Below are positions 4,971-25,105 of a stretch of 25,379 nt of DNA, one piece after another. This DNA is from Spirogloea muscicola. Lineage: Eukaryota > Streptophyta > Zygnematophyceae > Spirogloeales > Spirogloeaceae. Each line of letters starts with the position of its first letter. Positions within the stretch are counted from its first letter, which is position 1. Where the stretch lies: the NCBI GenBank assembly GCA_009602725.1, contig WELB01000357.1:34755-60133 (forward strand), given 5' to 3'. Made by a program: the position numbers and the translations under genes. A model generated the notes under the pieces. That model saw only the letters and a list, made by a program, of their open reading frames with translations, did not search any database and was not told where the DNA came from.

Positions 4971-5080
4971 GTTGAACGGCTCCCCACCCTCCCCGCCGCC
5001 GTCCGCGGCCGCCGCCGCCGCCGCCGCCGTCCGCTGCCCGCTGACTCGCGTGCGCCAGCGCCCCCGCCGGCCCCGACGCC

Positions 5081-8848: not shown

Positions 8849-8889
8849 GCGGGTCAGCTTAGCAGCAGGTGACGTACATTTGTCCAATG

Positions 8890-8944
8890 TGCTTGCCTTT
8901 GTACTTGGCCACACATGGCCTCCCCATCTCTTAATATACACGCA
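8890..8944 (+). repeat. Lineage I 3' UTR with GGCCA/TGGCC hairpin
   Basis: This segment recurs antisense at 12483-12545 and, more diverged, at about 24645-24680, each time as a LINE 3' end. The stem GGCCA (8907-8911) and TGGCC (8916-8920) is kept in all three, while the loop differs (CACA, CAA, TT). Conserved pairing with a variable loop suggests RNA structure. Confidence 0.65.
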
Positions 8945-9165
8945 TTTTCTGCTTTTTGTGCACGCGCTGCGGACTTGCCTCTCGCGGGACGCCGCCAAGG
9001 TCTCCAAAGCGAGCCGGCAACGAGCCGCGCGGGGTAGCGATCTGCAGCCGCAGGCAGCCGCAGGGCTGCGCCTCTCTTAGAGCTTCACTGAGTCCCCGAC
9101 CTCCGGTCGGATCTCTCTCTATTCCAAACAATCGTGCTTCTCCGTGCCACCCTCCCTTCTTTGCC
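8945..9165. other. Unassigned GC-rich spacer after the intact LINE
   Basis: No gene is recognised. It holds a local AGCCGCAG-rich stretch (9046-9067) and a small perfect hairpin, CCGACC-TCC-GGTCGG, at about 9097-9111. Its right end runs into a lineage II tail. Confidence 0.4.
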
Positions 9166-9169
9166 GTTG

Positions 9170-9236
9170 GACATTGTCCATTCTTTTGGGCTGGCTTTGC
9201 CAGCCCCTCTTCCTATGGGCGAGCACTTTCTTTCTC
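9170..9236 (+). repeat. Lineage II LINE tail, hairpin form GGGCTGGC-TTT-GCCAGCCC
   Basis: The module begins with the small palindrome GGACATTGTCC (9171-9181), followed by a T-rich run and an 8-bp perfect stem with a 3-nt loop (9188-9206). Then come ATGGGCGAGCAC and a TTTC-rich end. It is the first of about two dozen copies of this tail in the window. A decayed LINE copy in the same orientation begins about 110 nt downstream. Confidence 0.8.
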
Positions 9237-9349
9237 CCTCCAGGGTGTATGGGGGTCGCCCCAAGGCTCGCCCGCGAGGAGCGTGCCTGACGAGGCAACC
9301 ACGAGCTGTCTCCAGCAGGCGTCATGGCGCCGAGCATGGACTGGACTGG

Positions 9350-10565
9350 ACTGAACTGGACATCGCAAATGCCTTCAACACAGTGGAGCGCGGCGTCATT
9401 TTTGAGGAGCTGCGTGACCACTTTTCCTCCCTGGTCCCCTATTTCCTCATGGCCAATGGCCGGCCAGGGTGGCTGCTGTGACATACTGAGGAGTCCTGGA
9501 ACACGTTGTGGTCTTCAATTGGCACACGCCAGGTAGACCCCAGTAGCCCTATACTTTTCGCTTCGGCGATTTTCCGGGCACTACGGCGCACCCAGAGCCA
9601 GCACCCCAACCTCCCCTTCCCCTCCGAAGCGGACCACATATCGTTGGCCTATGTCGTTTGTCAGAAGTCATGGCGGCCTATCCCTTGCTCGTGCACGAAC
9701 GAGCATAATGGGCCTGCAGGTTTGCCCCACCAATAACGTGGCATGGTTCCTACGTGGTCTCCCCACCAACATCTAGCTCCCACCAGGCTGCCAGACCCCG
9801 GCCAATCGGCTGGCTATTCTCAAGGTACCCCTTGGCACACCCACCCACGTAGAGGAAGATGTCTGGAACGGACTGCAGAAAACCTTGCCCCACTTCCCTC
9901 CCTTCCTCTTCTTGGAGATCCGCAATTGGGCTCTGGCAATTTTTGTTCGCTGCATTGGCCAACTGGCGGGCTACCTGCAGCTGATATTCGCCCCAACGAC
10001 ATGCTGGGCATGCTGTACAAGGAGTACGATACCTCCCTCCTGCAAACCCTGGCTTCCCTGCCCTGCTACAACACCCATCCATCCCCTCACCTTCATCCTC
10101 CTTGCAGGCATCCCTCCCACATAGATGGGTGGCCTGGGCTGCTGGTTACTAGAATAGAATGCGCAGGCAGCTTTCCTTAGTTGCTGGCACCAGGTTGCCT
10201 CCCTACTTCCCTTGCGCTTCCCTTGTCTGGCTGGCCTGCAGCCGAGGTGGAGGACGGCTCCTTCGCATTTTAAGTGCACCTGAGGAGCATCCGCGAGTCA
10301 GCAGTCTGCTCCGTCCTCTCTCTGCAGCCCTCCTCACTCCAATCTCAGCGCTAGCCCAAGCAGCATACAGAGGTGCACAGGCTAAGACTCGTTGCTGCAG
10401 TCGAAGTTGAGCGTCGCAAGACGCTGAGGAGGATGCCAATTCAGGACCAACCCGAAGAGTCTGGCACAACTCACATCTCTTGCAACACCTGAGGCAACCG
10501 ACTGGCTCACCATTCACGCCATCTACTACGCCTTCAAAATCAGCCCCGAGGCCTATCGGACGCTG
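9350..10565 (+). pseudogene. Decayed internal fragment of a LINE (RT to start of RLE region)
   Basis: The segment is clearly similar to the intact ORF from motif A (LDIANAFNTVERG at about 9355) through the RT palm and thumb, to a point equal to about 8110 in the intact copy. It has an in-frame stop (TGA at 9480), a damaged YADD region (about 9625-9660, reading SEADH), and several further stops and frameshifts. Both ends are missing, which is unusual because LINE copies normally keep the 3' end. It was probably cut by a later deletion or rearrangement (inference). Confidence 0.85.
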
Positions 10566-11480
10566 TGTCATGCCACAGGACGTCGATTGACACACAGCGT
10601 CGATAGGTTAATTTGCAGACAAAGGAGTGACGTGTTAGGGTCTACGTGGCTGGCAGAACCAACAAACAAATCTGGAAAATAGAGTAGCGCAGCACGAAAA
10701 ACAGATGTAGTAACAGATGACATGGTGCAGACTGTGAAAATTGGACATGTGGCCAACATTACAGTGAACAACTTGAGAGGCAATTCACACACTTAGAACG
10801 AGAGTCCGGACCGAAGTCAAGAGATACGTACACAAGGAATGCTGAAGCAATGGTTTGCAGCAGCTTCTAACATCTCGAGACGATATTCGAGTACTGCACT
10901 TTGGACACACATAAGTTCACGATCTTCGTGGCTTACCAAGTGTGAGCCGGTCTCATGCAACTGGGAGCAGAGCTTCTCGGAGTAGGCTCTCTGGCGACTG
11001 CTCCACCACCTCTGGCACGGTCCAAGACGCGCGCTCGACACCTACGAACGCAGCAGCGGCGACGGCGGCTGCAGCGGCGGCGGGAGCGGCACAATGTCGG
11101 CAATCAGCCAGAGCGAGAGACTGGGCTGAGAAGACTGCTCGGCTCCGGCCTTCCGCACTTATGCCCAGTCAGGCAAATGCTTACATGGCTCTGGGGCAGG
11201 CCACTTGGCCCATTTGGCACCCCTGGTCCCACGGCCAGTGTAGTCTGGGACCGTGTTTAGACTGGCTACCTAACATTAACCGGTGCTAGCCTGGCCGGTA
11301 CCCAACAACACTCGTCAAGGTGGGTCACACCCATCGAACCGGGCTTTCGAGCTTTCCGGCTTCTCTTCGGGCTTCTCTTTTAAACGGTCTGGCGGCAGGA
11401 TACGCTATGCGCGCCGAGCCAGATCACGTCTCAGCGGCAGGTGCGCATCTTCCTGACCGGAGCTGAGCTGGAGGTACAGT
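10566..11480. other. Region without a recognised gene
   Basis: This lies between the broken LINE copy and the first tail cluster. It includes a GGC/GCA-rich patch (about 11041-11095). On the minus strand, 11041 to 10817 is open, with a charged helical-looking stretch (SEKLCSQLHETGSHL) that ends at a plausible donor (TTG|GTAAGC). It could be an isolated exon of an unseen gene, but no second exon supports it. Confidence 0.3.
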
Positions 11481-11499
11481 GTTCGCGACTCCTTTTCGC

Positions 11500-11725
11500 T
11501 TTTGGCCCCTTTGAACATTGTCAACACTGTTTGGGCTGGCTTCTCACAGCCCTTGCCCTCTTTGAGAGAGTCATTTTCTTTCTTTCTTCCAAAGGAGGCG
11601 AGCGCTATGAAAGAAGCACCTTCGCAACAGGAAGGAAGTGGCTCTCCCGAAGGAGACAAGGGCTGTGGAAAGCCAGCCCGAAAAGAATTGACAAAGGCTC
11701 AAAGGGGCCAAATGACGGAGGGGCC
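11500..11725. repeat. Inverted pair of lineage II tails (fold-back)
   Basis: The left arm (about 11500-11590) is a plus-strand tail with GGGCTG-N8-CAGCCC. The right arm (about 11634-11725) is a minus-strand tail with the same stem. The arms also share the outer block GGCCCCTTTGA, so pairing extends beyond the tail core. They are separated by about 44 nt. This looks like two insertions in opposite orientation rather than one exact palindrome, because the arms differ at many positions. Confidence 0.75.
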
Positions 11726-11810
11726 TAAAACTCTATTTCAGAACGGGTGAAGGATGGACCACACAGTAGTATTGAGTGAGAATAAGGGGCTGAGGGCTGT
11801 GAAGAAGAAG

Positions 11811-11875
11811 AGATGACGCTTCCAGAAGAGGGCGGTGGCAGTGAGGGCCAGCCCAAGAAAAGAGTATGAACAAAG
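11811..11875 (-). repeat. Degenerate lineage II tail
   Basis: On the minus strand, TTCTTGGGCTGGCCCTCAC and a CTTC-rich end are recognisable, but the distal half of the stem has decayed. It is an older copy than its neighbours. Confidence 0.55.
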
Positions 11876-11950
11876 TTCGAAGGGGCCAGAGAAAGCTCTG
11901 AAGCACACTGTGAATCAAGTAGCCACGAAGCACTCAGTAACCTCTGTTGA

Positions 11951-12015
11951 ATTCTTTTTGGGCTGGCTTTTCGCAGCCCTTGCCCCCATTGGGAGTGCCA
12001 CTTCTTCTTCTTTCT
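11951..12015 (+). repeat. Lineage II tail, subtype A
   Basis: This is a clean copy: GGGCTGGCTTTTCGCAGCCC, then TTGCCCCCATTGGGAGTGCC, ending in (TTC)n. The same 60 nt recurs almost unchanged at 12242, 12844 and, antisense, at 14214 and 25015. A LINE C-terminal remnant in the same orientation follows within about 100 nt. Confidence 0.85.
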
Positions 12016-12049
12016 GTTGAGCAGCGGCAGTCGGAGGAAGTAGTCTTCG

Positions 12050-12154
12050 GGTAGCGGGTCCACTGGCCAGAGCCAGAGGCACCAGTTGATGCGGGACTTT
12101 AGCTTCCCGGCAGCTAGTCTGTCGGATCTGAGGCTCCTCACTCGTAATTACTGA
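12050..12154 (+). pseudogene. LINE C-terminal remnant
   Basis: Only the end of the ORF is recognisable: FPAASLSDLRLLTRNY followed by TGA at 12152-12154. It ends like the copy at 15001. Upstream codons are interrupted. The 3' UTR that follows leads into the next tail at 12242. Confidence 0.7.
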
Positions 12155-12204
12155 GTGGTCCATCCTCCCCCTGTTTTACCTTAGCATCCTCAGGCCCCTT
12201 TGTA

Positions 12205-12307
12205 GCTGCTCACCGCCCTTAGGCCCCTCTGAACCTTTGTGAATTCTTTTTGGGCTGGCTTTTCGCAGCCCTTGCCCCCATTGGGAGTGCCACTTCTTCT
12301 TCTTCTT
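12205..12307 (+). repeat. Lineage II tail A with longer conserved leader
   Basis: The leader (GTAGCTGCTCACCG, then GGCCCCTCTGAACCTTTGTG) and the 60-nt tail are shared with the minus-strand copy at 25015-25105. The repeat unit is therefore at least 100 nt and includes 3' UTR. It ends in a TTC run that abuts an antisense LINE fragment. Confidence 0.8.
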
Positions 12308-12390
12308 GGGACTGGCACGCAGATGCAACGCGCGAGCCATGACCGCTGCAGCCAGACTGACAGGCGCAGAGACTGACAGGCGCATGGTCA
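12308..12390 (-). pseudogene. Short LINE C-terminal fragment
   Basis: The minus strand reads MRLSVS, then an interrupted segment, then ARALHLRA, as in MRLSVSLQRS...ALHLRAGRA of other copies. A partial duplication of the CTGACAGGCGCA block (about 12359-12385) is seen. It stops exactly at the TTC end of the preceding plus-strand tail, so the two are joined 3' end to cut end in inverted orientation. Confidence 0.6.
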
Positions 12391-12482
12391 GAGAGGGCAG
12401 CCGAGGACTACGAACAAAAGAAAGCTTCAAGCCTGGGGAGGGGGAGGGGGGTTTTGGGATTTTGGCTTCGGGAGGTTTTAGG

Positions 12483-12545
12483 AATGCGTGTATATTAAGA
12501 GATGGGGAGGCCATTGTGGCCAAGTACAAAGGCACGCACATTGAC
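12483..12545 (-). repeat. Lineage I LINE 3' UTR copy
   Basis: The reverse complement matches 8885-8944 of the intact element almost throughout, including the GGCCA/TGGCC hairpin (12509-12521). The match ends at the same base, which marks the element's 3' end. The coding part that should precede it (towards 12551 and above) is absent. Confidence 0.8.
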
Positions 12546-12715
12546 CAATTTTGGTGGGGGGTGGAGGGCAGGTGGAGCAGCCATGCCCACGGCCGTGGGC
12601 ACGGTGTCGGCGCCGGCCAGCGCCACAGGCGGCGGCGGGGCCCACCCCAAACTTGGCGGCGCCGCCCAGAGACAGGTCAAAGGCCTGCCCGCCCGCCGCC
12701 GCGGAAGAAGGCTCG

Positions 12716-12792
12716 CCCATGGAAGAAGTGGCACTCCCATAGAGAAAGAGGGGCTGGCAAAGCCAGCCCAAAAAGAATGGACAATGTCCAAA
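12716..12792 (-). repeat. Lineage II tail joined to part of a second tail
   Basis: On the minus strand this has GGACATTGTCC, the stem GGGCTGGC-TTT-GCCAGCCC, and the ATGGGAGTGCCACTTCTTC end. It then runs directly into ATGGGCGAGCC and CTTCTTCC, the distal half of another tail. The same junction point is seen in the doublet at 24978-25072. Confidence 0.75.
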
Positions 12793-12843
12793 GCCGAAGA
12801 ATGAGATGCCGAGGAAGGACTCCTCTACTCTACCAATCTACTA

Positions 12844-12899
12844 ATTCTTTTTGGGCTGGCTTTTCGCAGCCCTTGCCCCCATTGGGAGTGCCACTTCTA
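12844..12899 (+). repeat. Lineage II tail, subtype A
   Basis: This is a near-identical copy of the tails at 11951 and 12242. It ends in CACTTCTACC, with a shorter TTC run. It abuts the 3' UTR of an antisense LINE end (12927). Confidence 0.85.
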
Positions 12900-12926
12900 C
12901 CAATCACGACAACATACTAGGGAAGC

Positions 12927-12972
12927 TCAGTACCCGCGAGTGAGCAACATCAGGTCCGAGTAGCTCGAGGCA
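12927..12972 (-). pseudogene. Very short LINE ORF end
   Basis: The minus strand reads S-S-Y-S-D-L-M-L-L-T-R-G-Y-stop, the same ending as the larger fragment at 13198. Only about 45 nt of coding sequence remain. It follows a tail (12979-13033) directly, so the cut 5' end of this copy is joined to the end of the previous copy's tail. Confidence 0.75.
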
Positions 12973-12978
12973 GGGAAA

Positions 12979-13118
12979 GGGCTCGCCCATTGAGGATAGG
13001 GGCTGGACAAGCCAGCCCAAAAAGAATGAACAAAAAACGAGAAGGGGGCCAGAGGAAGAAAGAGCGCGCCCATAGAGAAAGGGGGCCAGCAAAGCCAGCC
13101 CAGAAAGAATGGACAATG
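12979..13118 (-). repeat. Two lineage II tails in tandem
   Basis: On the minus strand the first tail (13118-13063) has GGGCTGGC-TTT-GCTGGCCC, which keeps RNA pairing only through two G-U wobbles. The second (13033-12979) has GGGCTGG-N5-CCAGCCC and ATGGGCGAGCCC. Both are in the orientation of the LINE fragment at 13198 and lie downstream of it. The first is therefore plausibly its own tail. Confidence 0.8.
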
Positions 13119-13197
13119 TCAAAAGCCAAAAACAACAAAAACAAAAAACACACAGCTAGGCAGCTAGAGAAGAAGACACGACGAAATCACAGGAAGC

Positions 13198-14213
13198 TCA
13201 ATACCCCCGGGTGAGCAACATCAGGTCGGAGTAGCTCGACGCAGGAAATGATGCATCCAGACGCGACCCAGAAGCAGCCGCGATAGCGCGGCCCGCACGC
13301 GAGTGGACGGCATAGGCGAGGGAGCGTTGGAGGGACACGGAGAGCCGCATCCGGAAGACCTGGGCCAGGGAGCCGGCCGCGTTGAAGCCGGGCAGCCCCC
13401 CTGGCAGACCCGGCCGCCGCTCGATGACCTGCCGGGCAAGCCGCTGGAGGAGGTCCAGCCAGCCATGGCCATTGGCCCCGTGGACATCGATGGCCAGGGC
13501 TGCGAATTCGTCGGCAGGCGGGTGATCAGCATATTTCCGTTCTTTGCCGCGGGCCGCCACAGCGACCGCATGCCCAGCGGTCGTCGCCGACTTGGAGGGG
13601 TTAGCGGAGTCGACACAGTCGGTGGTCACCACATCCGCGATGATTCGTGGACCCGCCCCGGGCGGGATGGCGACGAGGTCAGCGCGCCGGGTGTGGATCC
13701 GGCCGTCTTCGTCGCGCAGGATGGGCATTATTGACGAGTGCTCCACGGCCACTTTGTAACCCGCCTCGAGGAAGACGCCTTGCATGCCGTCCCTGAGCAG
13801 GTCGTGGGATCCGGTCCGCTCGCCGCCGTGGGCACAACGAAGCATGTGGGCCGCCAGCGTCGCAGGGTCAGCGTGGCGGGCACCGCACTCACATTGCGTG
13901 ACACCGACGAGGCAGGGGGGAAGGAGGCCGAGAAGCCGCTGCACCGCCGTCCTGTAGACTGCATCGGGCATTGTGAGGGCCGCGTATATGGGGAGCGCGG
14001 ATACCCACGCCGCCGCCCCGGGGGAGGAGGCTGAGAGCAGCCTGGCGCGCCCGCGACTGTCTTGCGGCGGAAGGAGCTCCGCCACCTGGTCGTAGGCCGC
14101 TTTGTCCACGAGCGCATTGCAGCGGGCCTGGGCCCGCGGGTCGGGGGTGTGCGCCAGGTGGATGAACGGAACAACCTGCTGCGACATGTCGGGGTGGGCC
14201 GCCAGGAGCCCGA
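13198..14213 (-). pseudogene. 5'-truncated LINE with intact RLE domain
   Basis: About 338 codons are open to the stop (13198-13200), ending SSYSDLMLLTRGY. It has the CCHC (CECG...AAHMLRC) and the two Asp positions of the endonuclease (RRADLVAI and IIADVVTT), about 45% alike to the intact element by eye. The RT is absent. The open frame continues upstream without a stop through the attached tail (14214-14277) but has no ATG there. It is a truncated copy of the lineage II element, and its RLE part shows no visible damage, so it is young. No expression signal is seen. Confidence 0.85.
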
Positions 14214-14277
14214 AAGAAGTGGCACTCCCAATGGGGGCAAGGGCTGCGAAAAGCCAGCCCAAAAAGAATGCACAAAG
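14214..14277 (-). repeat. Lineage II tail A fused to the next LINE fragment
   Basis: The minus strand has GGGCTGGCTTTTCGCAGCCC, TTGCCCCCATTGGGAGTGCC and CACTTCTTTC. The LINE fragment at 14213 begins on the next base. Upstream on the minus strand is the 3' UTR and ORF end of an earlier copy (14336-14392). Confidence 0.88.
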
Positions 14278-14335
14278 GTCCGAGGAAGCGCTAAGAAACC
14301 AAAGCACACAAAGAAAGAAAGCAGCTACAAATCAC

Positions 14336-14392
14336 TCAGTAACCCCTGCTAAGCAGCCGCAAATCAGAGAGGCTAGGGTCCTGGAAGTGGGT
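14336..14392 (-). pseudogene. Very short LINE ORF end, head of a chain
   Basis: The minus strand reads ...PSLSDLRLLSRGY-like codons (CTCTCTGATTTGCGGCTGC, then CTTAGCAGGGGTTACTGA), with the stop at 14336-14338. The same end occurs on the plus strand at 24722-24756 and 25321-25364. Its 3' UTR (GTGATTTGTAGCTGC and CTTTGTGTGC) leads to the tail at 14277. Confidence 0.75.
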
Positions 14393-14491
14393 GGACAGAG
14401 CCAGAGGAGGGAAGGAGGCACTCCGCCGAGACCCGGAGGCCGCGGCCAGAGCGCGTCCTGCGCGCGTGTGAACAGCGTGACGAGCCATCAC

Positions 14492-14646
14492 GCCGCCACT
14501 CCGCTCTTCTCCTCCCTCTTTTTCGCAGCCCTTGCCCCCATTGGGAGTGCCATTTCTTCTTCTTTCACCAGGCCGCCGCTCCGCTCTCCTCCTCCCTCTT
14601 TTTCGCAGCCCTTGCCCCCATTGGGAGTGCCATTTCTCTCTTTCCC
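14492..14646 (+). repeat. 80-nt tandem duplication of a lineage II tail
   Basis: Two copies (14492-14571 and 14572-14646) share GCCGCC-CTCCGCTC, CCTCCCTCTT and the distal tail TTTCGCAGCC through GTGCCATTTCT. The proximal half of the hairpin (GGGCTGG) is replaced by CTCCCTCTT in both. The loss therefore came before the duplication. Confidence 0.85.
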
Positions 14647-14689
14647 AGTCGGCTGCTCAACTGGCAGTTCTGAGCACCCAGTGGCCAGT

Positions 14690-15003
14690 TACAGTCGCAG
14701 TGTGTGCGTATGCGGTGCACTTGCGTGGCGACCTGCTATCGGAAACGACACTACCGCCGCCTAGCTCCGACTGAGCTGGCGGGCCAGGTGGCACATCGAA
14801 GGCATCTTTGTCGGTGCAACGCCTCTAGCTCATGGGCCCAGGTCTACCGCATGCGCTTATCAGTCTCCCTCCAGCGGTCCATGGCACACGCCTTGCATCT
14901 GCGTGCTGGCCGTGCTCTCGCGGCAGCCTCTGACTGTCGCCAAGGGGATTGTTTTCCGGCAGCTAGTCTGTCGGATTTGAGGCTCCTCACTCGTCGCTGC
15001 TGA
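14690..15003 (+). pseudogene. LINE C-terminal fragment
   Basis: The last 60 or so codons are open: WAQVYRMRLSVSLQRSMA through ALHLRAGRALAAAS to SDLRLLTRRC, stop at 15001-15003. Upstream, 14764-14840 resembles the preceding segment (ELAGQVAHRRH). A piece at 14695-14745 (AYAVHLRG) repeats the C-terminal part, so two truncated pieces seem to be joined. The final Y is C here. Confidence 0.75.
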
Positions 15004-15075
15004 GTGGTCCATCCTCCACCCGTTCTGACATAGCGCTTAAGGCCCCTCCGTCATTGAGGCCCTTTCGGCCCTTTC

Positions 15076-15199
15076 AGTGTCCATTCTTTTTGGGCAGCTC
15101 GCTTCTATCTGGGCGAGCACTTTCTTTCGACCCTCTGTCAGTTCTTTTCGGGCAGGCGTTTCACAGCCCTTGCCCCCATTGGGAGAGCCACTTCTTCAG
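15076..15199 (+). repeat. Two lineage II tails in tandem
   Basis: The first (15079-15130) is decayed in the stem but keeps GGGCGAGCACTTTCTTTCG. The second (15141-15199) has GGGCAG-N8-CAGCCC, with one mismatch in the stem, followed by CCCCCATTGGGAGAGCCACT. They are the downstream tails of the fragment ending at 15003. Confidence 0.75.
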
Positions 15200-15224
15200 C
15201 TCTCAGCCACCGCCCTCTGCTGGA

Positions 15225-15720
15225 CCAGCGGTCTTCGGGACCATCGGCTCCCCCCGCCCGCCCCGCCGCGCCCGCCGCCATGGCGCCGCCCCCGCCGCCG
15301 CGGCTGCAGCTCGCCTGGGCCNGCCAGCCCGAGCGCGGCGCCCGCCTCCTGGCCGCTCACCACGCGGCTCCACCGGCTCGCCCCAGTGGGCACCACCACC
15401 CCGACCGTACGGCTCCTCCTCCTCCTCCACCTTGCGCTTGGCAGCAGGTCCTGACAGCGGCCCCGCCGCAGCTGGCCATGCGGCAGCACTGCGCGCCCAG
15501 GCGCGCCTCCTCCTGAGCCCATGTGCCTGGAGCCCCTTTGGCGGGCCAAGCGCCAACCTCCAGTCTCGAGCTTCTGTAACACTCAATGCTGCTCAAGGAT
15601 CCAGACTTTGGCCAATGCAAGCCGTGATACGTTGACCATATAGATTTTCTCAAGCGCATGCAAACAGAGACATGACATGCTGCAAACTTGCGTCGTTTGC
15701 CCCACACCTGCGTGAGCTTC
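15225..15720. other. GC-rich stretch before the LRR gene; no gene assigned
   Basis: CpG-rich with GCC runs, and one ambiguous base at 15322. Open frames exist in several phases but show only low-complexity Pro/Ala. A Leu-rich segment at about 15408-15446 (VRLLLLLHLALGS) before a possible donor at 15448 resembles a signal peptide. It has no in-frame ATG nearby and its phase does not fit the first LRR exon. It may be promoter or first-exon DNA of the LRR gene, or the 5' end of another LINE. Confidence 0.35.
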
Positions 15721-15724
15721 GCAG

Positions 15725-18406: not shown

Positions 18407-18436
18407 TTTTCCTCTCGTGTCCCAGACCAACCACAC

Positions 18437-18514
18437 ACCCCCCTTTTCCCTCCTCCTCCCTTCCTTGCCCCCCTCCCCAACCCCCTCCATCCCTTGTACA
18501 TCCCCCCCCCCTCT
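18437..18514 (+). repeat. Polypyrimidine-rich tract
   Basis: A run of C and T with few purines follows the LRR gene's stop. It could form triplex DNA or be 3' flank low complexity. Open frames on the opposite strand here (Gly/Glu-rich) are by-products. Confidence 0.7.
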
Positions 18515-18758
18515 TGACTGACGACATCTTGGCCTCGGCTGGCCATGTGGATCGCGAGGAAGGCTGTGCGACAAGAGCGACGGGGAGACCAGCCTCAGCG
18601 CTCGACAGCGGCGGCAGCGGTGGCGGCGGCGCGTTGCAGCGGCAGGATGGCGTGCAATCTCAGATTGGGATCCCAGCCGGTCGATACAAAAGGGTCGCGG
18701 CCGGCCCAGATAGGCCAGTGTGACCGCTAGGTACCGCTAGGCCAAATGTGACCATGCA
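18515..18758. other. No gene recognised; GGC-rich patch
   Basis: It contains a CAGCGGCGG-type patch (18604-18650), and a small direct repeat ACCGCTAGG (18723-18731 and 18733-18741). A further exon of the LRR gene could lie here if the donor at 18381 is used, but no acceptor or domain supports one. Confidence 0.3.
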
Positions 18759-18816
18759 AGAATCTGACGTTTTGGCATCTCCTTTCAACACTCCCACCTG
18801 CCAAATGTCAGATTCT
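18759..18816. repeat. Imperfect inverted repeat, 17-18-nt arms
   Basis: AGAATCTGACGTTTTGGC (18759-18776) pairs with GCCAAATGTCAGATTCT (18800-18816), with one bulge or mismatch around a 23-nt loop. Arms can be extended by a few bases (TGCA). The loop holds TCAACA-CTCCCACCTG, whose complement looks like an LTR-retrotransposon polypurine tract followed by TGTTGA. Confidence 0.75.
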
Positions 18817-18967
18817 GCAGCAATATGACTACTCTAAGGCAGCTCTGATGTTGTGAGTACTGAAGCATGCAAGCTCATCCACACACATGCGAACCCACAA
18901 GAGAGACATGGCCATGAGAGGGGGATTCTTACCCTCCATCTCAGGCACTTCACATACACTGTGTTCA

Positions 18968-19186
18968 CCCCTTTTGGGTATTTGAGGACTGAACTAGCCC
19001 CATGCCTCTGACACAGAACATGTGCTTGTCACGCGACACTGCCTTCGTCAAGCAGTCTGCTACTCTGCCGCGCCTTCCTGTTACTGACTTGGCGATCCTG
19101 AGTGGGCCCTGAACAGCCCATTCCCAAACTGCAGCTCTGCGGTATGTAGATAAATGCTCTCTAGAGCTCTCTAGACCCCCCTCCAT
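18968..19186 (-). pseudogene. Ty1/copia-type polyprotein C-terminal remnant (RNase H end)
   Basis: The minus strand is open for 73 codons and ends QSSNTQKG-stop. The segment VADCLTKAVSRDKH...RGMGLV matches the well-known copia ending (A-D-x-L-T-K-x-L/V-x-R-x-K-H ... M-G-L). The preceding part (about 30 residues) is compatible with the last RNase H helix but decayed. Nothing upstream is recognisable. A possible polypurine tract and LTR start (TGTTGA) lie downstream, at about 18801-18785 on the minus strand. This is an old fragment. Confidence 0.6.
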
Positions 19187-19555
19187 CTGCCACCCCCTTT
19201 TCCTCCGAGAGGGCGTTTTCCAGGTCTTTCTAGACTGCCAGGTCGCTCTGCAAAAGATTGTACATTATGCCTACCCGATCCGTGAGAGGGTTAACACGGC
19301 ACGTCAACCTCACTTGCCAACACGCCTGGTGGTGGCCCCCTCATCGCCGCTGTGTGGTCATATTGAACAACTATGACTGTAGCAGCCTGGTCACATTGGT
19401 CGGAAAGTTGCTGTCGAGTGCGCAGATCATATGACAGGAGATGCATTTGTCCCATCGCTACAAAGGGCGTTTAGGGCTCAGTGGCCTGACTTCTAGCGGC
19501 TTGCTTGACCCAGCAGCTGCGGTAGGAGGATGAGCAGCCCAACTTTTACAAAGCT
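19187..19555. other. No gene or repeat recognised
   Basis: Mixed-composition DNA with stops in all frames. A short CTCTAGAG(CT) duplication occurs at about 19158-19172, next to the copia remnant. Confidence 0.4.
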
Positions 19556-19708
19556 TGCCCGAAGTGGAAAGCTAGCCCAGGAAGAATGAACAAGTTACAT
19601 GGTCGAAAGGGCGCCAGAATCACAGCGCCAGAACCACACAGCTATGCAAGAGATTACAGCGCACGGGAGCTTAGTAACCCCGAGTCAGCAGCCGCAAGTT
19701 GGAGTAGA
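19556..19708 (-). pseudogene. Short LINE ORF end plus 3' UTR and tail remnant
   Basis: The minus strand reads YSNLRLLTRGY-stop (stop at 19671-19673). It continues into a 3' UTR (AGCTCCCGTGCGCTGTAATC, then TAGCTGTGTGGTT) that recurs at 20310-20380, and a decayed tail (GGGCTAGCTTTCCACTTCGG, about 19592-19556). Confidence 0.7.
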
Positions 19709-19709
19709 G

Positions 19710-19900
19710 AAGCAAATACAGCTGATGATGTGGCAAAGGGCTGTGACAAGCCAGCCAGAGTAGCTGAAACAGCTCTGAGAATGTGAGGCAATGGCTGTGC
19801 GAGGCCATCCCATAGAAGTGAAGTGAAGCCCAAAATAGAAGACTCCTCCAGTAGAGGGCGATGACTGTGAGTGGCCAGCCCAAGAAAAGGATGGATAAGT
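19710..19900 (-). repeat. Run of about three decayed lineage II tails
   Basis: On the minus strand, starts such as CTTGGGCTGGCCACTCACAG (about 19888), GGGATGGCCTCGCACAGCC (about 19812) and CTGGCTGGCTTGTCACAGCC (about 19760) follow each other in one orientation. Each is followed by CATTGCC- or CATCGCC-like and CTTC-like sequence. They lie between two truncated ORF ends and read as an array of old tails. Confidence 0.55.
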
Positions 19901-19956
19901 GATGAAGGGGCCAGAGCATGTGCTGAAGCCCACAGCGACTCAAGTGGTCACGGTGC

Positions 19957-20190
19957 TCAATAGTCCCTGGTGAGCACTTGCAGGTCAGGGAATCTAGTCT
20001 CGGGGTAGCAGGTCCCCCCTCGATACCCAGAGGCTGCAGCCAGGAGTCGACCGCCACGCAGATGCAACGCGTGCGCCAGTGACCGCAGCAGCGGCACTGG
20101 CGAGCGCATGCGGTACATCTGGGCGAGAGATGAAAGACTTCTGGGCGAGAGAGCCCAGGAAAGAAAGAAACAGCTCTTTGAATGCAAGGC
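19957..20190 (-). pseudogene. LINE C-terminal fragment
   Basis: The minus strand reads SLAQMYRMRSPVPLLRSLA, then HALHLRGGRLLAAASG, to FPDLQVLTRDY-stop (19957-19959). About 55 codons are recognisable. Upstream it meets the tail at 20197 through a short CTTTCTTTCC-rich stretch. Another frame of the same DNA is open but has no LINE similarity. Confidence 0.75.
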
Positions 20191-20196
20191 AATGGC

Positions 20197-20312
20197 TGTC
20201 AGAAGAAGTGGCTCGCCCAATGGGGGCAAGGGCTGTGAGAGGCCAGCCCAAAAGAAGTGAGCTCTTCCGAAGGGGGCGGAGGCTGTGAAAAGCCAGGCCA
20301 GAGAATATGGAC
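20197..20312 (-). repeat. Two lineage II tails in direct tandem
   Basis: The older copy (about 20312-20260: GGCCTGGCTTTTCACAGCC, then GAGCTCACTTC) ends at the first base of the younger copy (20256-20197: TTTTGGGCTGGCCTCTCAC, AGCCCTTGCCCCCATTGGGC). The junction is CACTTC|TTTTGGGC, with nothing between. Confidence 0.75.
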
Positions 20313-20402
20313 AAGGTCCTAAATGGCCGAAAGGTGCGAAAACCACACAGCTACGCAAGAGACTACAGCGAGTGGGAGCTTACTAACCCCGAGTCAGCGA
20401 GA
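20313..20402 (-). pseudogene. Short LINE ORF end with 3' UTR
   Basis: The minus strand reads L-T-R-G then TAG-TAA (20380-20385), followed by the 3' UTR block AGCTCCCACTCGCTGTAGTC and TAGCTGTGTGGTT shared with 19600-19670. It is the head of the minus-strand chain running down to 19556. Confidence 0.65.
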
Positions 20403-20455
20403 AAGAAGGCGCGCAGTGCGCATGAGATCGAAGGAGAGGCCAACACTAGCCTTAC
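20403..20455 (-). repeat. Lineage III 3' UTR motif
   Basis: The minus strand has TTTTTGTAAGGCTAGTGTTG, GCCTC and CATGCGCACTGCGCGCC, the same block as at 4790 and 21148. It lies about 45 nt downstream of the ORF end at 20498. The GCGC-N3-GCGC stem is kept with loop ACT. Confidence 0.65.
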
Positions 20456-20497
20456 AAAAATTTTGGTAACGAAGTAATGAGTTGGCTGAGGGGGGCA

Positions 20498-20910
20498 CTA
20501 ATATCCTCGAGTGAGCACATACATATCTGACAAGCTAAGCTGAGGAGCCAGACCACCACCACGGAAGCCATTAGCCTGGCCTAACGCACGCCCAGCACGC
20601 TGTGTATCGCGAGTACCTTGGAGCACTGTACCCTCAATGGTTGCTGCATCCTATAGCAGGCAATGCTGGGCTTGCGGGACGCTAAGATGCCCTAAGCTAC
20701 CCGCCCGAGCACGTTGGCGGACATCGACATGTTGTGCCAGGCGATGGAGGAGGGAAGACCACTTCGTTTCGTAGCCGCCGTGTATGTCCATGGCGCATGG
20801 GAACAAGTGGTCGCCCGGGGGGGCGGTCCTCATAATGTCGCTCCTCCTTCTCCGCATGATCTGTCGCCCAACCTGGCACAGTCGGCGTGGGTGCCCCCCA
20901 GTCAGCAGGC
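20498..20910 (-). pseudogene. Lineage III LINE C-terminal fragment
   Basis: The minus strand shows AEKEERHYED, then DHLFPCAMDIHGGYETKWS and SLLHRLAQHV in shifted frames, and ends SLSDMYVLTRGY-stop (TAG, 20498-20500). The middle has frameshifts. It matches the fragment ending at 21275 best. Its upper end is joined to the end of a different LINE copy. Confidence 0.75.
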
Positions 20911-21062
20911 GAAAGTCGATTAAACTTGCAGCTAGAAAAGAAGCGAGGCACCCCGACGAGACCCGGAGGTGGCAGCCAAAGCGCGGCCTGCCCGCAAGTG
21001 CGCTACGTGACCGGTGGAGGAAGAAAAACGGATAGCCGCACACTGAAAACCTGGGCAAGCGA
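20911..21062 (-). pseudogene. LINE C-terminal fragment joined to the next copy
   Basis: The minus strand reads NAAGSLAQVFSVRLSVFL, a frameshifted middle, then AASLIDFRLLT. There it passes, without stop or 3' UTR, into the fragment that ends at 20498. The 5' side abuts a plus-strand tail (21079). It is the C-terminal end of a lineage II copy. Confidence 0.65.
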
Positions 21063-21078
21063 CCCAGCGGCGTTGTTC

Positions 21079-21140
21079 ATTCTTTTCTGGGCTGGCTTTT
21101 CTCAGCCCCTAGTCTCAATGGGCGAGCCCTTTTTCTTCTT
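21079..21140 (+). repeat. Lineage II tail, subtype B
   Basis: TTCTTTTCTGGGCTGGC, then CTCAGCCCCTAGTCTCAATG and GGCGAGCCC with a TTCTTCTT end. Subtype B differs from A in having CTCAATGGGCGAGC in place of CCCATTGGGAGTGC. It is flanked on both sides by antisense LINE material. Confidence 0.8.
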
Positions 21141-21147
21141 GAAGGGA

Positions 21148-21205
21148 AGGCGCGCGGGGCGCATGAAATGAAATGGAGGCCAATTCAAGCAAATACATTG
21201 TTTAG
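21148..21205 (-). repeat. Lineage III 3' UTR motif
   Basis: The minus strand has TTTGCTTGAATTGGCCTCC and CATGCGCCCCGCGCGCC, about 70 nt downstream of the ORF end at 21275. Here the stem is GCGC-CCC-GCGC. Similarity to the 20403 and 4790 copies stops near the GCGCGCC(TTC) end, probably the element's 3' end. Confidence 0.65.
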
Positions 21206-21274
21206 TCAGAGTCTAGGGCAAACTAAACAGGGCTACATAATACGGAGACCTAAACTAAGGTGCCTAAGGTGACA

Positions 21275-23735
21275 TCAGTATCCACGGGTGAGCACAAACA
21301 AGTCCGACAAGCTTACTTGGGGAGCTGGAGCGCCACCACGAAAGCCGGAGGCCTGACTTAGAGCGCGCCCTGCACGTTGATGAAGAGCCAATGCTTGCGA
21401 GCGCTGCAAACTAAGTGAGAGCTGCATTCTATGATATGCAACTAAGGCCTGCGGAATGCTGGAGTGGCCCAAGCTGCCCCCCCGACTTAGACGACCCGCA
21501 TCAACCAGCCCGGGCCAGATCCTTGTTCAGGGAGGACAATTTTACGCCGTAGCCTCCGTAGATATCCATGGCACACGGATAAAGATGGTCCCCTCGGGGA
21601 TGGTCCTGGTAGTGCCGCTCCTTCTTGCGCTCCACGCTGGACGTGGCCTAGCCAGACACGGTTGACGTGGGTGCGCCAGCCTTGCATGCGTTGATAAGTA
21701 CCACGTCCAGGAGCAGACGAGGCCCACCGCCCCGGGGGGTGGCGACCACATCCAGACGCCGCACATATGGCTTGCAGCGGCTTGAGGAGATTGGCATGAT
21801 GCCGGACACCTCCATCGCCGGATGATACCCCGCCTCTCGCACAATTCCAAACATAGTGTCCCTGATTAAGTCGTGGGAGGCAATGCGCTCACCCCCCTCA
21901 ACACATCTCCGCATATGAGCAGCTAGATCGATCATCGGCAATGTGGCCACACTCGCACTGGCAGATGGCAGCCAAGCAAGGGGGGGGGAGGCCGAGGCGG
22001 TGGTGGAGCGCTGTGCGAAACAGGTTGTCTGTGAGCCGAAGGGACTAGTATATCGGCAGAGCGTTTAGCCACTCAGACGCGCCCGTGGAGCTGATGGAAA
22101 GGAGCCAGGTGGGGCCACGTCCATCGTCCTTGAGCAGTCTTTTCAATTCAAGGCGGCCTGCACGTCCCCAGCGTGAGTGTAGTGCGCCTGCGCTTTCCTG
22201 TCAGAACAGCGTGCCCATGCGGCAAAATCTACATGACCCTCTGCAGGTGTTGGTAAAGAGCGCGAGAGGTCATGCAGTGCTGCGGTCAGGGAAAGCTGGA
22301 AGGGTAGGTTCTCTGTTGCAACACCCGCTATAGTGGGTGCTAAAACAGCCTGGCCCCTCAGGATGAAGCGACTGGAGATGGTGGAGGCCACTTGGGCCCA
22401 GCAACCCAGGTGAGCTGCTTGGGACAGGCGAGCCAGTGGACGGCACCCAAGGCCGCCTTTGCTGGTAGGAAGGGTACACTGTAGGATGGCAGCCGGCGTG
22501 GCAGATGCATTGGGATGGTCCACCAGGCCGTGAAGAGCCTGTTGGAGTTTGGAGTCCACGGTAGAGTAGATGGCGCTTAGTGCAGAGGTGGGGGGAACAG
22601 TCCGCAACAGGTAAGTGGGACGCTGGGCCACATAGCGGGTGAGGATGGCCACCGCAAGCTGCGTGTCCTGTAAGGAGGGGAGGGCCGGAAGGGTCTGGAG
22701 ATGGTTCTCAAGGGTGGACTCCACAACTTGCTCCACATGCCGAGCAGCCCCCAACGGGGCTCCAAGCACCACCATGCCGATTGGTGGGGTCTGGCACCCA
22801 GCCGGCAGCTTGATGGAGGGAGGGATGCCGGCTGGAGACCAGGCTGAACCCTTCTCGGCCCGGATGTTGAGGCCGAGGCTGTGAAGCTCGCGCTCCAACG
22901 TGCTGTAAGCGCTGGTGACTTCAGTCGGGAGTCCCACCATGGTGGTGTCGTCGGCGTAGCTTGGGACTAGCACAGCAGGGTGGGCCTCCGCCGTATTACG
23001 CAGCGCCCGTAGGTGTGCCAGTGCAAAGAGGAACCCAACCAAAGGCTCCCTGCCGGGTGCCTGTGCTGGATTGCAAGACCACCTGTGACGTGCCCGCTCC
23101 CCAGAGCAGGCGGGAGGGTGCTCCGTAGGAGCACCGGAAGAAAGGGATGAGGGAGGGGGAATGCGTGCGCAGCTCCTCGACGATGACACCTCTGTCAACG
23201 CTGTTAAACGCATTCTTCACGTCCACTGAGAGCGCCATCCAATCGGAATTGCAATCCAGGGCATCCTGTAGACCATGAACCACTGTCTCCGCGCCTGCAG
23301 ACAGCCCTGCGCCAAGCTGGTGGGGGGAGAAGTGGAGCTGCGCCGCCTCTCTGTTCTGCTGGAATAGGGTCTTTGAAACCAGTCGGGTAAGGACCTCGCC
23401 CATCGCAAGTTGGTCGGACGCCTCCGGTGGGCTTGGAAAGAGCGAGCAGGGTCCTGCTGTGAGTGCCGCCCGGGCCTTGGGTGGGAGAAGGCCGCGCGCC
23501 ACCGCTTGGCACACTTTGTGCAGCAGACTGAAGTCACCCGCCTCGTCGTCCAGCCAGAGCTCGCGAAGGTGTTCAAAGAGCATGCCCGAGGGCCCTCCAG
23601 CTGCTTTCCGGCTCTGCACCAACGCTGTCCGAAGGGCTGCTGGGTTGAGGTCCACCAAGGTCGGGGGCTGGAACTCCTTGAGCCAAGGGGGGTAGGGAAG
23701 GAAGCGCGGCCAGAGTGACTGGTGGCTGGGAAAGG
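21275..23735 (-). pseudogene. Large decayed LINE copy (lineage III), RT to C-terminus
   Basis: The minus strand is recognisable from the RT fingers (AALRTALVQSRKAAGGPSG, about 23640) through motif A (LSVDVKNAFNSVDRG, about 23220), motif B (GTRQG, about 23060), motif C (VPSYADDTTMVG, about 22950) and the thumb. It continues through the RLE CCHC (AAHMRRC) and D...D segment (RRLDVVAT, LLLDVVL), to SDLFVLTRGY-stop at 21275-21277. The frame is broken within motif B, near 22143, near 21950, near 21648 and near 21500. It is cut at the 5' end next to a tail-like hairpin (23722-23746). It cannot encode an active protein. Confidence 0.85.
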
Positions 23736-23746
23736 CCAGCCCAAAG
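23722..23746 (-). repeat. Tail hairpin at the cut end of the large LINE copy
   Basis: The minus strand has TTTGGGCTGGCCTTTCCCAG, then CCACCAG. The stem GGCTGG/CCAGCC is kept, but the second half of the tail is missing. The LINE sequence starts right after it. Confidence 0.55.
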
Positions 23747-23809
23747 GTAGGGGCTTGGGGGCGGGGGGGTGGAGGGTCCTGCTCTGGCTCTGGCCGGCTC
23801 TGGCTGCGT

Positions 23810-23982
23810 CTCTGACCGGACGCTGCTTAGCAGGGGTTACTGAGTGATCCATAGCTGCTTTATTTCTTTGTGTGCTTGTTTTACTTAGCGCTTCCCCTGG
23901 CCCCCTTCTCGTCCTTTGTTGATTTTTTTTTTGGGGCTGGCTTTTCCAGCCCCTATTCTCAATGGGCGAGCACTTTCTTCTT
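23810..23982 (+). mobile_element. Minimal LINE copy: ORF end, 3' UTR and lineage II tail B
   Basis: It holds L-L-S-R-G-Y-stop (TGA at 23841-23843), a 3' UTR (TAGCTGC, TTTGTGTGCTTG, GCTTCCCCTGGCCCCCTTCT), and a tail with the best stem seen, GGGGCTGG-N5-CCAGCCCC (23935-23955). It then ends in CAATGGGCGAGCACTTTC and TTCTTC. The next LINE fragment begins at 23983. Confidence 0.8.
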
Positions 23983-24610
23983 CGCCGGGACCCACTGGAC
24001 CAGAAGTGGTGGGCATTCACAACCTCCTTCGCGATGCCCTGGCGGGCTTGATGCGCGACGCCGGCTACCGGTTGTGGAAGTCACAACATCATGCCTATCA
24101 CCACTGACGCCCAGGGACGTCATCATCGCCGCACACTTGACATTGTGGGCGTGCAACCTGGTGGAGGACCACGGGCCCTGGTCGACGTTGTTGTTACGGA
24201 GGCATATAAGGGCCCAGCACCGACACACATCGCTGGGCATGCAGTGGGCGGTGCAGAACAAAGAAAACTGCGGCACTAGTCCGATTACCCCCGATGCGAT
24301 CAGCTCCTGCCAGCGGCAATCGACATCTATGGCTGTCTGGGTCCTCGTATCCACACTCTCCTTCAAAACATTGCCATTCTAGGCTACACTCGACGTGCAG
24401 ATGTGTTTCCGGCTGAGATGGGCTTGCCAGCTGCATATCTGTCGCTCTTGCGACCACGAGTTTCGGCCAGTTTGCAGCGCGTTCAGGCTAGTGGCTTGCA
24501 CCAGAAAGCTGGGCGAGCTTTCAGAGCTTGGTGGCAGAGGAGCTCCGCTTCTGGCATCTAGTATTCATGCATCGATTAGTGACCTTTATGTTTTGACCCG
24601 TGGTTATTGA
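23983..24610 (+). pseudogene. Lineage I LINE, RLE region to C-terminus
   Basis: It matches the intact element from about residue 1050: EVVGIHNLLRDALAGLMRDAG, a small deletion, then MPITTDAQGRHHRRTLDIVG, ALVDVVVTEAYK and HIAGHAVGGAEQ. It ends ASISDLYVLTRGY-stop (24608-24610). Several frameshifts and an in-frame stop after LRH (24280-24282) break it. It starts directly at the TTC end of the preceding tail. Confidence 0.85.
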
Positions 24611-24639
24611 GCGGGTCAATATGCTGTAGGTTATGTAGA

Positions 24640-24705
24640 TCTTCAGATGTGCTTGCCTTGATACTTGGCCATTTGGCCTACATTTGTTTGTAATGTACGG
24701 AATTT
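24640..24705 (+). repeat. Lineage I 3' UTR with GGCCA/TGGCC hairpin
   Basis: AGATGTGCTTGCCTTGATAC then TTGGCCATTTGGCC corresponds to 8889-8920. The stem is GGCCA (24667-24671) and TGGCC (24674-24678) with loop TT. The sequence beyond differs from the intact copy. Confidence 0.65.
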
Positions 24706-24707
24706 TA

Positions 24708-24896
24708 CTTCCAGGAGCCTAGCATCTCTGATCTGCGGCTGCTTAGCAGGGGTTACTGAGTGATTCGTAGCTGCTCTGTTTTTTTGTGTGCTTGTTGTCC
24801 TTAGCGCTTCCCCTGGCCCCCTTCTCGTACTCTGTTCCTTCTTATCGGGCTGGCTTTTTCAGCCCATATCCTCAATGGGCGAGCACTTTCTTCCTG
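24708..24896 (+). mobile_element. Minimal LINE copy: ORF end, 3' UTR and lineage II tail B
   Basis: It begins at CTTCCAGGAGCCTAGC, shared with 25315 onward. It encodes SISDLRLLSRGY-stop (about 24722-24756), and carries the same 3' UTR as the copy at 23843. It ends in the tail GGGCTGGCTTTTTCAGCCC, with CAATGGGCGAGCACTTTCTT. Confidence 0.8.
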
Positions 24897-24977
24897 AGAG
24901 CAGCAAGGGACTCAGCGTCGTGAGGTGCTGGGGTGGCTGGGTCCAGAGCTTGGGCAGCACGGGAAACGTGAAGGCTG

Positions 24978-25105
24978 AAAAAGAAGAAAGTGCTCGCCCA
25001 TTGAAAGAAGAAGAAGTGGCACTCCCAATGGGGGCAAGGGCTGCGAAAAGCCAGCCCAAAAAGAATTCACAAAGGTTCAGAGGGGCCTAAGAGCGGTGAG
25101 CAGCG
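24978..25105 (-). repeat. Lineage II tail A inserted at half of a tail B
   Basis: The minus strand has the extended leader (CTGCTCACCGCTCTTAGGCC, then CTCTGAACCTTTGTG), a complete subtype A tail and (TTC)n. It then continues at AATGGGCGAGCACTTTCTTC of subtype B with no gap. The proximal hairpin half of tail B is not present next to it. Confidence 0.8.

Follow-up and report, generated by a model that had tools for sequence, protein, structure and literature searches.

Results

Tail modules at the locus

The window analysed here, 25,379 nucleotides (nt) of Spirogloea muscicola contig WELB01000357.1 (positions 34755-60133), is scattered with copies of a short module containing a hairpin. This module is the 3' end, hereafter the tail, of one group of related long interspersed nuclear elements (LINEs), not of all such LINEs found here. 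As an earlier note made from the sequence alone had remarked, there are about two dozen copies on both strands, many of which carry no coding part. A tail model (R1, 88 positions, built from 70 copies including some from the window) gave 23 matches at the cut-off of E<=0.01, 11 on the plus and 12 on the minus strand, spanning 9153 to 25094. Likewise, GGGCTGGCTTTT with up to two mismatches occurred 24 times, against a mean of 4.06 and a largest value of 11 in 100 dinucleotide shuffles. The size of about 60 nt initially given to the module was a fair estimate, since 54 positions were nearly invariant (from 16 nt before GGGCTGG through GAGC); a weaker majority consensus begins about 28 nt before GGGCTGG. 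The alignment of 70 tails displayed a mean column identity of 59%, the conserved 3' tail being common to the copies. The short copies are most probably products of target-primed reverse transcription that began on longer LINE RNAs and was aborted early.

The module is abundant throughout the assembly (153,112,186 bases in 471 contigs). Sequence content places this genome in the green lineage, with 68 matches to chlorophyll a/b-binding proteins whose best PDB relatives are light-harvesting (LHC) chains; a search of the assembly for the large RuBisCO gene found none. The exact 12-mer of the module was found 7,048 times against once for the reversed pattern used as control. A broader set of 296 copies (exact, fuzzy and window) was assembled. 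Of these, 191 had at least 45 nt of upstream sequence in common and sufficient flank, and entered the clustering; 154 of them fall into the tail types A to H. Type A was counted 4,908 times, type B 8,506 times and type D 3,500 times (reversed controls 0), so that at least 16,914 tails (the sum of these three types) are present in the 153.1 Mb assembly.

Attachment to LINEs

The earlier proposal, in which the module forms the 3' terminus of a LINE, was borne out, as stops of open reading frames (ORFs) lay upstream at typical distances and in the same orientation. For 108 of the 296 copies, an ORF end reading '..LTRGY*' or a close variant, and oriented like the tail, lay no more than 330 nt upstream. 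Seven of the eight types had at least one such copy, type F being the exception. The link was thin for types E (5 copies), G (1) and H (2), and the larger distances may be those of a neighbouring element. Typical spacing between stop and hairpin was 97 nt in type A, 76 or 88 in B, 96-99 in C, 70 in D and 51-52 in H. Over the whole genome, the ORF-end motif occurred 10,785 times (control 2) and one reverse transcriptase motif 143 times (control 7), both counts comprising all LINEs with these motifs.

The full-length LINE of the window does not carry the module. This element (5045-8946, +) has an ORF of 1267 amino acids (5045-8848, +), belongs to another lineage and has a different 3' end (CTTGGCCACACATGGCCTCCCCATCTCTTAATATACACGCATT at 8904-8946, +), the module being that of other LINE families. 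It represents a second kind of 3' end, with the hairpin-capable GGCCACACATGGCC and the final letters AATATACACGCATT. A 5'-truncated relative was recognised by eye at about 12483-12548 (-), and the ORF-end letters CTGACTCGTGGTTACTGAG recur among the genome-wide ORF-end motif matches listed.

Truncation of 5' ends

Copy numbers decreased smoothly with distance from the tail. In type D, 3,500 copies at the tail (+5) were reduced to 1,423 at the ORF stop (-96) and 212 within the ORF (-358), with controls of 0; this corresponds to losses of about 0.9% and then about 0.7% per nt, an approximate rate since these counts compare different 30-mers allowing mismatches, one of them coding. A second estimate came from the C1 set, which comprises the 100 copies with an exact 12-mer that were listed for C1:53498-2274950, together with their surrounding sequence; 73 of them could be assigned to type A (26) or B (47) and 27 could not. 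The 5' ends of these 73 copies, followed from 0 to 400 nt in consecutive intervals, appeared at rates of 0.87, 1.3, 0.53, 1.08, 0.83 and 0.67% per nt. No preferred 5' start was detected among them, hence no defined 5' end or head such as would characterise a short interspersed nuclear element (SINE). Measured by family consensus, 40 of the 73 ended within 60 nt of the hairpin; a partner-based measure gave 31 of 100, and 19 of 80 among copies with at least ten close partners.

Target site duplications and empty sites

Copies consisting of a tail alone are true insertions. In the window, a solitary type-A tail without LINE body is a 57-nt insert (12839-12895, +) that starts 14 nt before GGGCTGG and ends with GCCACT. 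It is flanked by identical target site duplications (TSDs) TCTACCAATC at 12829-12838 and 12896-12905. The corresponding empty site in L053 (C1:1370086-1371187), whose flanks are 94-99% identical, contains this sequence only once.

The search for TSDs around solitary tails, which the earlier note had suggested, was positive beyond this single site. With TSDs of at least 5 bp at 85% identity or more, TSD-flanked candidates with an empty site numbered 17 among 206 tail boxes. The controls gave one hit among 1,030 random positions in five sets and one among 618 positions in three sets lying no further than 400 nt from a tail, which makes 2 of 1,648. Empty-site candidates as such existed for 25 of the 206 boxes. 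From the 24 rows listed, 11 (10 sites) were accepted and 13 set aside, either due to a target that was itself a tail, a TSD of 0-3 bp, or two flanks below 40 nt. The ten accepted inserts measured 17, 25, 31, 31, 50, 52, 57, 59, 87 (two-sided, see below) and 98 nt, several of them too short to span the hairpin region. Only sequence located 3' of the hairpin is present in the stub of 25 nt and in one of the two 31-nt stubs; the other 31-nt stub keeps the last bases of the hairpin alone. Should recognition require the hairpin, stubs without it must be products of a longer template.

Longer TSD-flanked inserts of 151, 174, 196, 197, 219, 268, 268, 309, 406 and 681 nt were also found. They were taken from 32 rows obtained for the 296 copies among the matches listed, requiring a TSD of at least 5 bp and at least 0.83 identity; further passing rows were short-flanked or concerned sites already among the accepted short inserts, and were excluded. 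The 174-nt, 197-nt and one of the 268-nt inserts lie in older tails, and those of 309 and 681 nt are composite. TSD sequences varied from site to site, with lengths mostly of 5-10 bp. With a strict pattern, 43 of 183 3' boxes lacked a hairpin, which is an upper figure.

At C1:1345641 and C1:1345986 (L051), two insertions occurred at the same target letters gccagggaacgcTCAGTaacctctagtcag, corresponding to the antisense end of the type-D ORF. This is possibly a preferred insertion site.

Doublets, arrays and a head-to-head insert

Tails were clustered, with 25 gaps below 1 kb among the 100 copies of the C1 set against 4.2 expected. Many empty sites lay in other LINE copies, which is partly a bias because an empty site is visible only in repeated sequence. 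Nested insertion accounts for some doublets, tandem duplication for one and a clearly two-sided insertion for another. The pair at 14539 and 14619 is one tail truncated within its hairpin and doubled by an 80-bp tandem duplication (14487-14643, +; R1 matches, read by eye), not two insertions, because the upstream flank is repeated as well. Among neighbouring boxes within 500 nt (206 boxes, L009-L082 and the window), 68 pairs were in tandem, 19 had their heads inwards and 19 had facing 3' ends. Tandem neighbours thus outnumber the 38 opposed ones, as if copies entering an older tail or landing behind it tended to take its orientation, nesting and tandem duplication being taken together in this count.

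The two-sided case, at C1:1342464-1342504 (L050), is an insert of 87 nt enclosed by a single TSD of 9 bp (GATGAGCTG), with its empty site in L016. Two truncated tails make it up, one of type B and an inverted one resembling type C, joined by their 5' ends and with their 3' ends outward. The same head-to-head layout was observed at C1:56187/56246 (L009) and C1:426426/426467 (L021), without clean TSD evidence. We tentatively suggest, with more doubt than confidence, that one target site may have been primed from both 3' ends, each at a LINE RNA tail and even from two families, and that the short complementary DNAs (cDNAs) were joined head to head. Were it a general process, two-sided priming would produce some of the inverted doublets in a single step, unlike the twin priming of L1. 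Two-sided insertion was treated as rare because there was no general excess of heads-in pairs among neighbours within 500 nt (19, against 19 facing and 68 tandem). A genome count of head-to-head junctions (GCCAGCCC N0-19 GGGCTGGC, 50 places, control 1) was left unused since hairpin arms mimic this pattern in other layouts.

The hairpin

The stem of the hairpin is rich in G+C and hardly varies between copies. RNAalifold on 70 copies returned a 5-pair stem only, with a covariation term of -0.01 and none of the five pairs changed on both sides. Mean folding z-scores relative to shuffles (up to 12 copies per family) were -3.4 for type B, -3.5 for C, -1.7 for F, -1.5 for G, -1.2 for A, -0.7 for D and E, and -0.3 for H. 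An outer stem lies behind the values of B and C; swapping its arms between families did not in general weaken pairing and it was rejected as evidence of structure. No Rfam match was found in the window. The hairpin is a plausible but unproven candidate for the recognition signal of the LINE reverse transcriptase.

Other tails and features of the window

The tails below were located with model R1 and, where a type is given, by typing. A type-C tail at 9153-9237 (+) scored 72.2 bits. A tail without type assignment (11497-11584, +) points its 3' end toward a type-A tail (11628-11716, -), forming a facing doublet, and is followed by a diverged tail at 11803-11894 (-). In the type-A tail at 11930-12011 (+), homology with the family consensus stops about 20 nt before the hairpin. 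The type-A tail at 12215-12303 (+) belongs to a 5'-truncated LINE copy, with an ORF end seen by eye upstream in the same orientation. Then come a type-C tail (12718-12805, -) followed on its own strand by a 3'-box fragment (12704-12721), and a type-B tail (12968-13049, -) adjoining the type-C tail at 13051-13137 (-). The latter terminates a LINE whose ORF end lies in the open frame 13198-14331 (-), its stop being 96 nt before the hairpin. The later part of this frame is the C-terminal part (zinc-knuckle-like and endonuclease-like) of a type-C LINE, ending in ..LMLLTRGY*, and gave no Pfam hit; its start reads through an inserted type-A tail (14209-14297, -), the upstream flank of which resembles, by eye, a type-B 3' untranslated region (UTR).

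Another type-A tail occupies 15122-15201 (+). Three diverged tails were found within 19540-19919 (-), at 19540-19614, 19728-19756 and 19830-19919, and the segment 20202-20335 (-) combines a type-E tail (20254-20335) with a type-A-like one (hairpin at 20230-20249). Homology with the family stops about 15 nt before the hairpin in the type-B tail at 21073-21140 (+) and about 5 nt before it in the type-D-like tail at 23691-23745 (-). The type-B tails at 23895-23984 (+) and 24811-24897 (+) both have a 3' UTR and an ORF end upstream (by eye). Finally, the TTC end of a type-A tail (25006-25094, -) is abutted by a type-B 3' box alone, without hairpin (24983-25003, -), which was detected with the 3'-box pattern.

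Outside the tails, an intron-containing gene at 15900-18400 reads by eye like plant-type leucine-rich repeats, and positions 1-360 comprise about 122 A in a row followed by CG/CA simple repeats.

The LINE protein

One long ORF with a reverse transcriptase domain was found in the full-length LINE of the window (5045-8848; RVT_1, E=1e-18), together with a Pfam match to zf-C2HC_2 (E=4e-4) that remained below the cut-off of that family; the module families were compared by their C-terminal parts only. These parts are 61% identical between types B and C, and 43% identical between type B and the full-length LINE. Four sequences were aligned, one of them starting only after CEC, and the CEC..H..C and D..GPR..DVVxT columns are conserved. 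Judged by eye, these columns resemble a zinc knuckle followed by a putative restriction-like endonuclease (RLE) of the PD-(D/E)XK kind. Pfam gave no match over this C-terminal knuckle and endonuclease region, and structure prediction of the C-terminal part (four sequences) reached a mean predicted local distance difference test score (pLDDT) of 41, leaving an endonuclease fold unconfirmed. The LINEs bearing the module thus look like single-ORF, RLE-type elements, the RLE itself being unproven. Similarity of the reverse transcriptase to R2 in the PDB was weak (E=7e-4, one sequence), and the insertions observed lie elsewhere than the 28S rDNA site of R2, with varied TSDs.

Discussion

Origin of the short copies

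Early-aborted reverse transcription would proceed as follows. The LINE protein would nick its target, the putative RLE being the presumed nicking enzyme, and reverse transcription would start at the 3' end of what is supposed to be a long LINE RNA template. In most recovered copies synthesis would have stopped after tens to a few hundred nt, and the stub would have been joined to the target, leaving a TSD mostly of 5-10 bp. A stop chance of about 1% per nt would be expected to yield thousands of copies with only the 3' UTR, hairpin and TTC end, or with part of the tail. Doublets and arrays would mainly come from new stubs landing in and beside older ones.

In the earlier note the tail was thought to be mobilised almost alone, like a SINE, i.e. 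as a short tail RNA transcribed or processed separately and moved by LINE proteins in trans. Thousands of tails, TSDs and few copies bearing a reverse transcriptase motif would fit this idea. Yet it is disfavoured by the smooth decay of copy numbers, 5' ends spread without a common start, and TSD-flanked inserts from which nearly all or all of the hairpin is missing; nor did Rfam return a match in the window. We consider it improbable. Erosion of old LINE copies by deletions, with only the 3' end still recognisable, is more improbable again. Many copies are indeed diverged, and extension measures need similar partners, but the stubs of 25-98 nt with empty sites, matching flanks and TSDs at both ends are complete insertions, which makes erosion untenable for the accepted sites; even among the 80 copies with at least ten close partners, 19 ended within 60 nt of the hairpin.

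The G+C-rich, nearly invariant stem could be imagined to block the reverse transcriptase and thereby make short copies. No excess of 5' ends was visible there (per nt, 0.87% over the 30 nt directly preceding the hairpin, 1.3% over the next 30 and 1.08% at 100-150), and we give this explanation very little credence. Duplication of a few tails, whether segmental or in tandem, appears the least probable of all. It did occur in the 80-bp duplication at 14487-14643, and both clustering and the preponderance of tandem neighbours within 500 nt (68 of 106) would be compatible with it, as would the 35 of 100 copies homologous with at least one partner over more than 90 nt downstream, in part due to physical overlap of neighbours. 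However, median downstream homology over partners ended 46 nt after the hairpin start and TSDs differ between sites. The check envisaged in the earlier note thus spoke against duplication as a general cause, because flanks are mostly unshared.

Several observations weigh against early abortion as a complete account. Truncation measures disagree, with medians of 54 nt (family consensus) and 126 nt (partner-based), because one stops early in the variable 3' UTR and the other is bounded by partner length. The last two of the six intervals had just 12 and 2 copies at risk, and the decay along type D is approximate for the reason given above. The 143 reverse transcriptase motifs, which include all lineages, exceed what a single exponential with a mean of 110-140 nt would leave, and a second, processive class must therefore exist. 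Among the 43 boxes scored as lacking a hairpin, at least those at window positions 13075 and 15107 and at C1:644749 have diverged hairpins. The 17-nt insert has one TSD mismatch, or alternatively measures 20 nt with a 5-bp TSD, and the 31-nt insert at 205027 may also be taken, by eye, for one of 26 nt whose TSD has 14 bp. Several accepted sites (205027, 987570 and the window site) have a single empty site. Since empty sites are detectable only where the target is repetitive, the TSD sample is one of nested insertions.

Relation to known LINEs

UnaL2 and ZfL2 elements are not of the RLE type. LINEs of the stringent type recognise a 3' stem-loop, and R2 is counted among them since its 3' UTR is required, as outlined in PMC4176376. 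Like these elements (UnaL2, ZfL2-1, ZfL2-2, R2Bm, R2Dm and SART1), the LINEs described here have a short conserved tail capable of forming a stem-loop. Stem-loop recognition was measured there and is only presumed here, and no partner SINE was found here. The domain order given for RLE-type LINEs in PMC5678591 (R2, R4/Dong, CRE, NeSL, HERO and Utopia being the single-ORF elements compared) resembles the one seen here, with an N-terminal zinc-finger-like match, reverse transcriptase, C/H knuckle and C-terminal endonuclease-like region. Differences were the knuckle spacing (CX2-3CX7-8HX4C as published versus CX1CX11-12HX3C as read from our alignment), the weak similarity of the reverse transcriptase to R2, and TSDs that vary from site to site.

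Twin priming yields an inverted piece that derives from further upstream in the same RNA. The two-sided insert differs from L1 twin priming, its inverted piece being the 3' tail of another family within a TSD of 9 bp. Truncation, TSDs and the idea of priming at two ends are otherwise reminiscent of 5'-truncated and 5'-inverted L1 copies; in the comparison of L1, ZfL2-1 and Nimb-2_DR junctions in PMC4245944, 5' inversions were almost confined to L1 and TSDs were mostly of 10-20 bp. As for distribution, Utopia was placed in Amoebozoa, SAR and Opisthokonta in PMC4640811, and Dualen and L1 LINEs were reported from Chlamydomonas and relatives in PMC8226300. None of the papers listed in a literature search outside subscription journals and Repbase described RLE LINEs reduced to their tails in an alga or plant, or a genome dominated by such stubs.

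The present data call for caution in naming dense, short, TSD-flanked repeats SINEs, as a repeat that lacks a body need not be an independent element. The way in which reverse transcription terminates is preserved in very short LINE stubs. The tails, at least 16,914 in number, and the TSD-flanked stubs of as little as about 25 nt make the stop chance per nt and the joining of very short cDNAs measurable in this alga from sequence alone.

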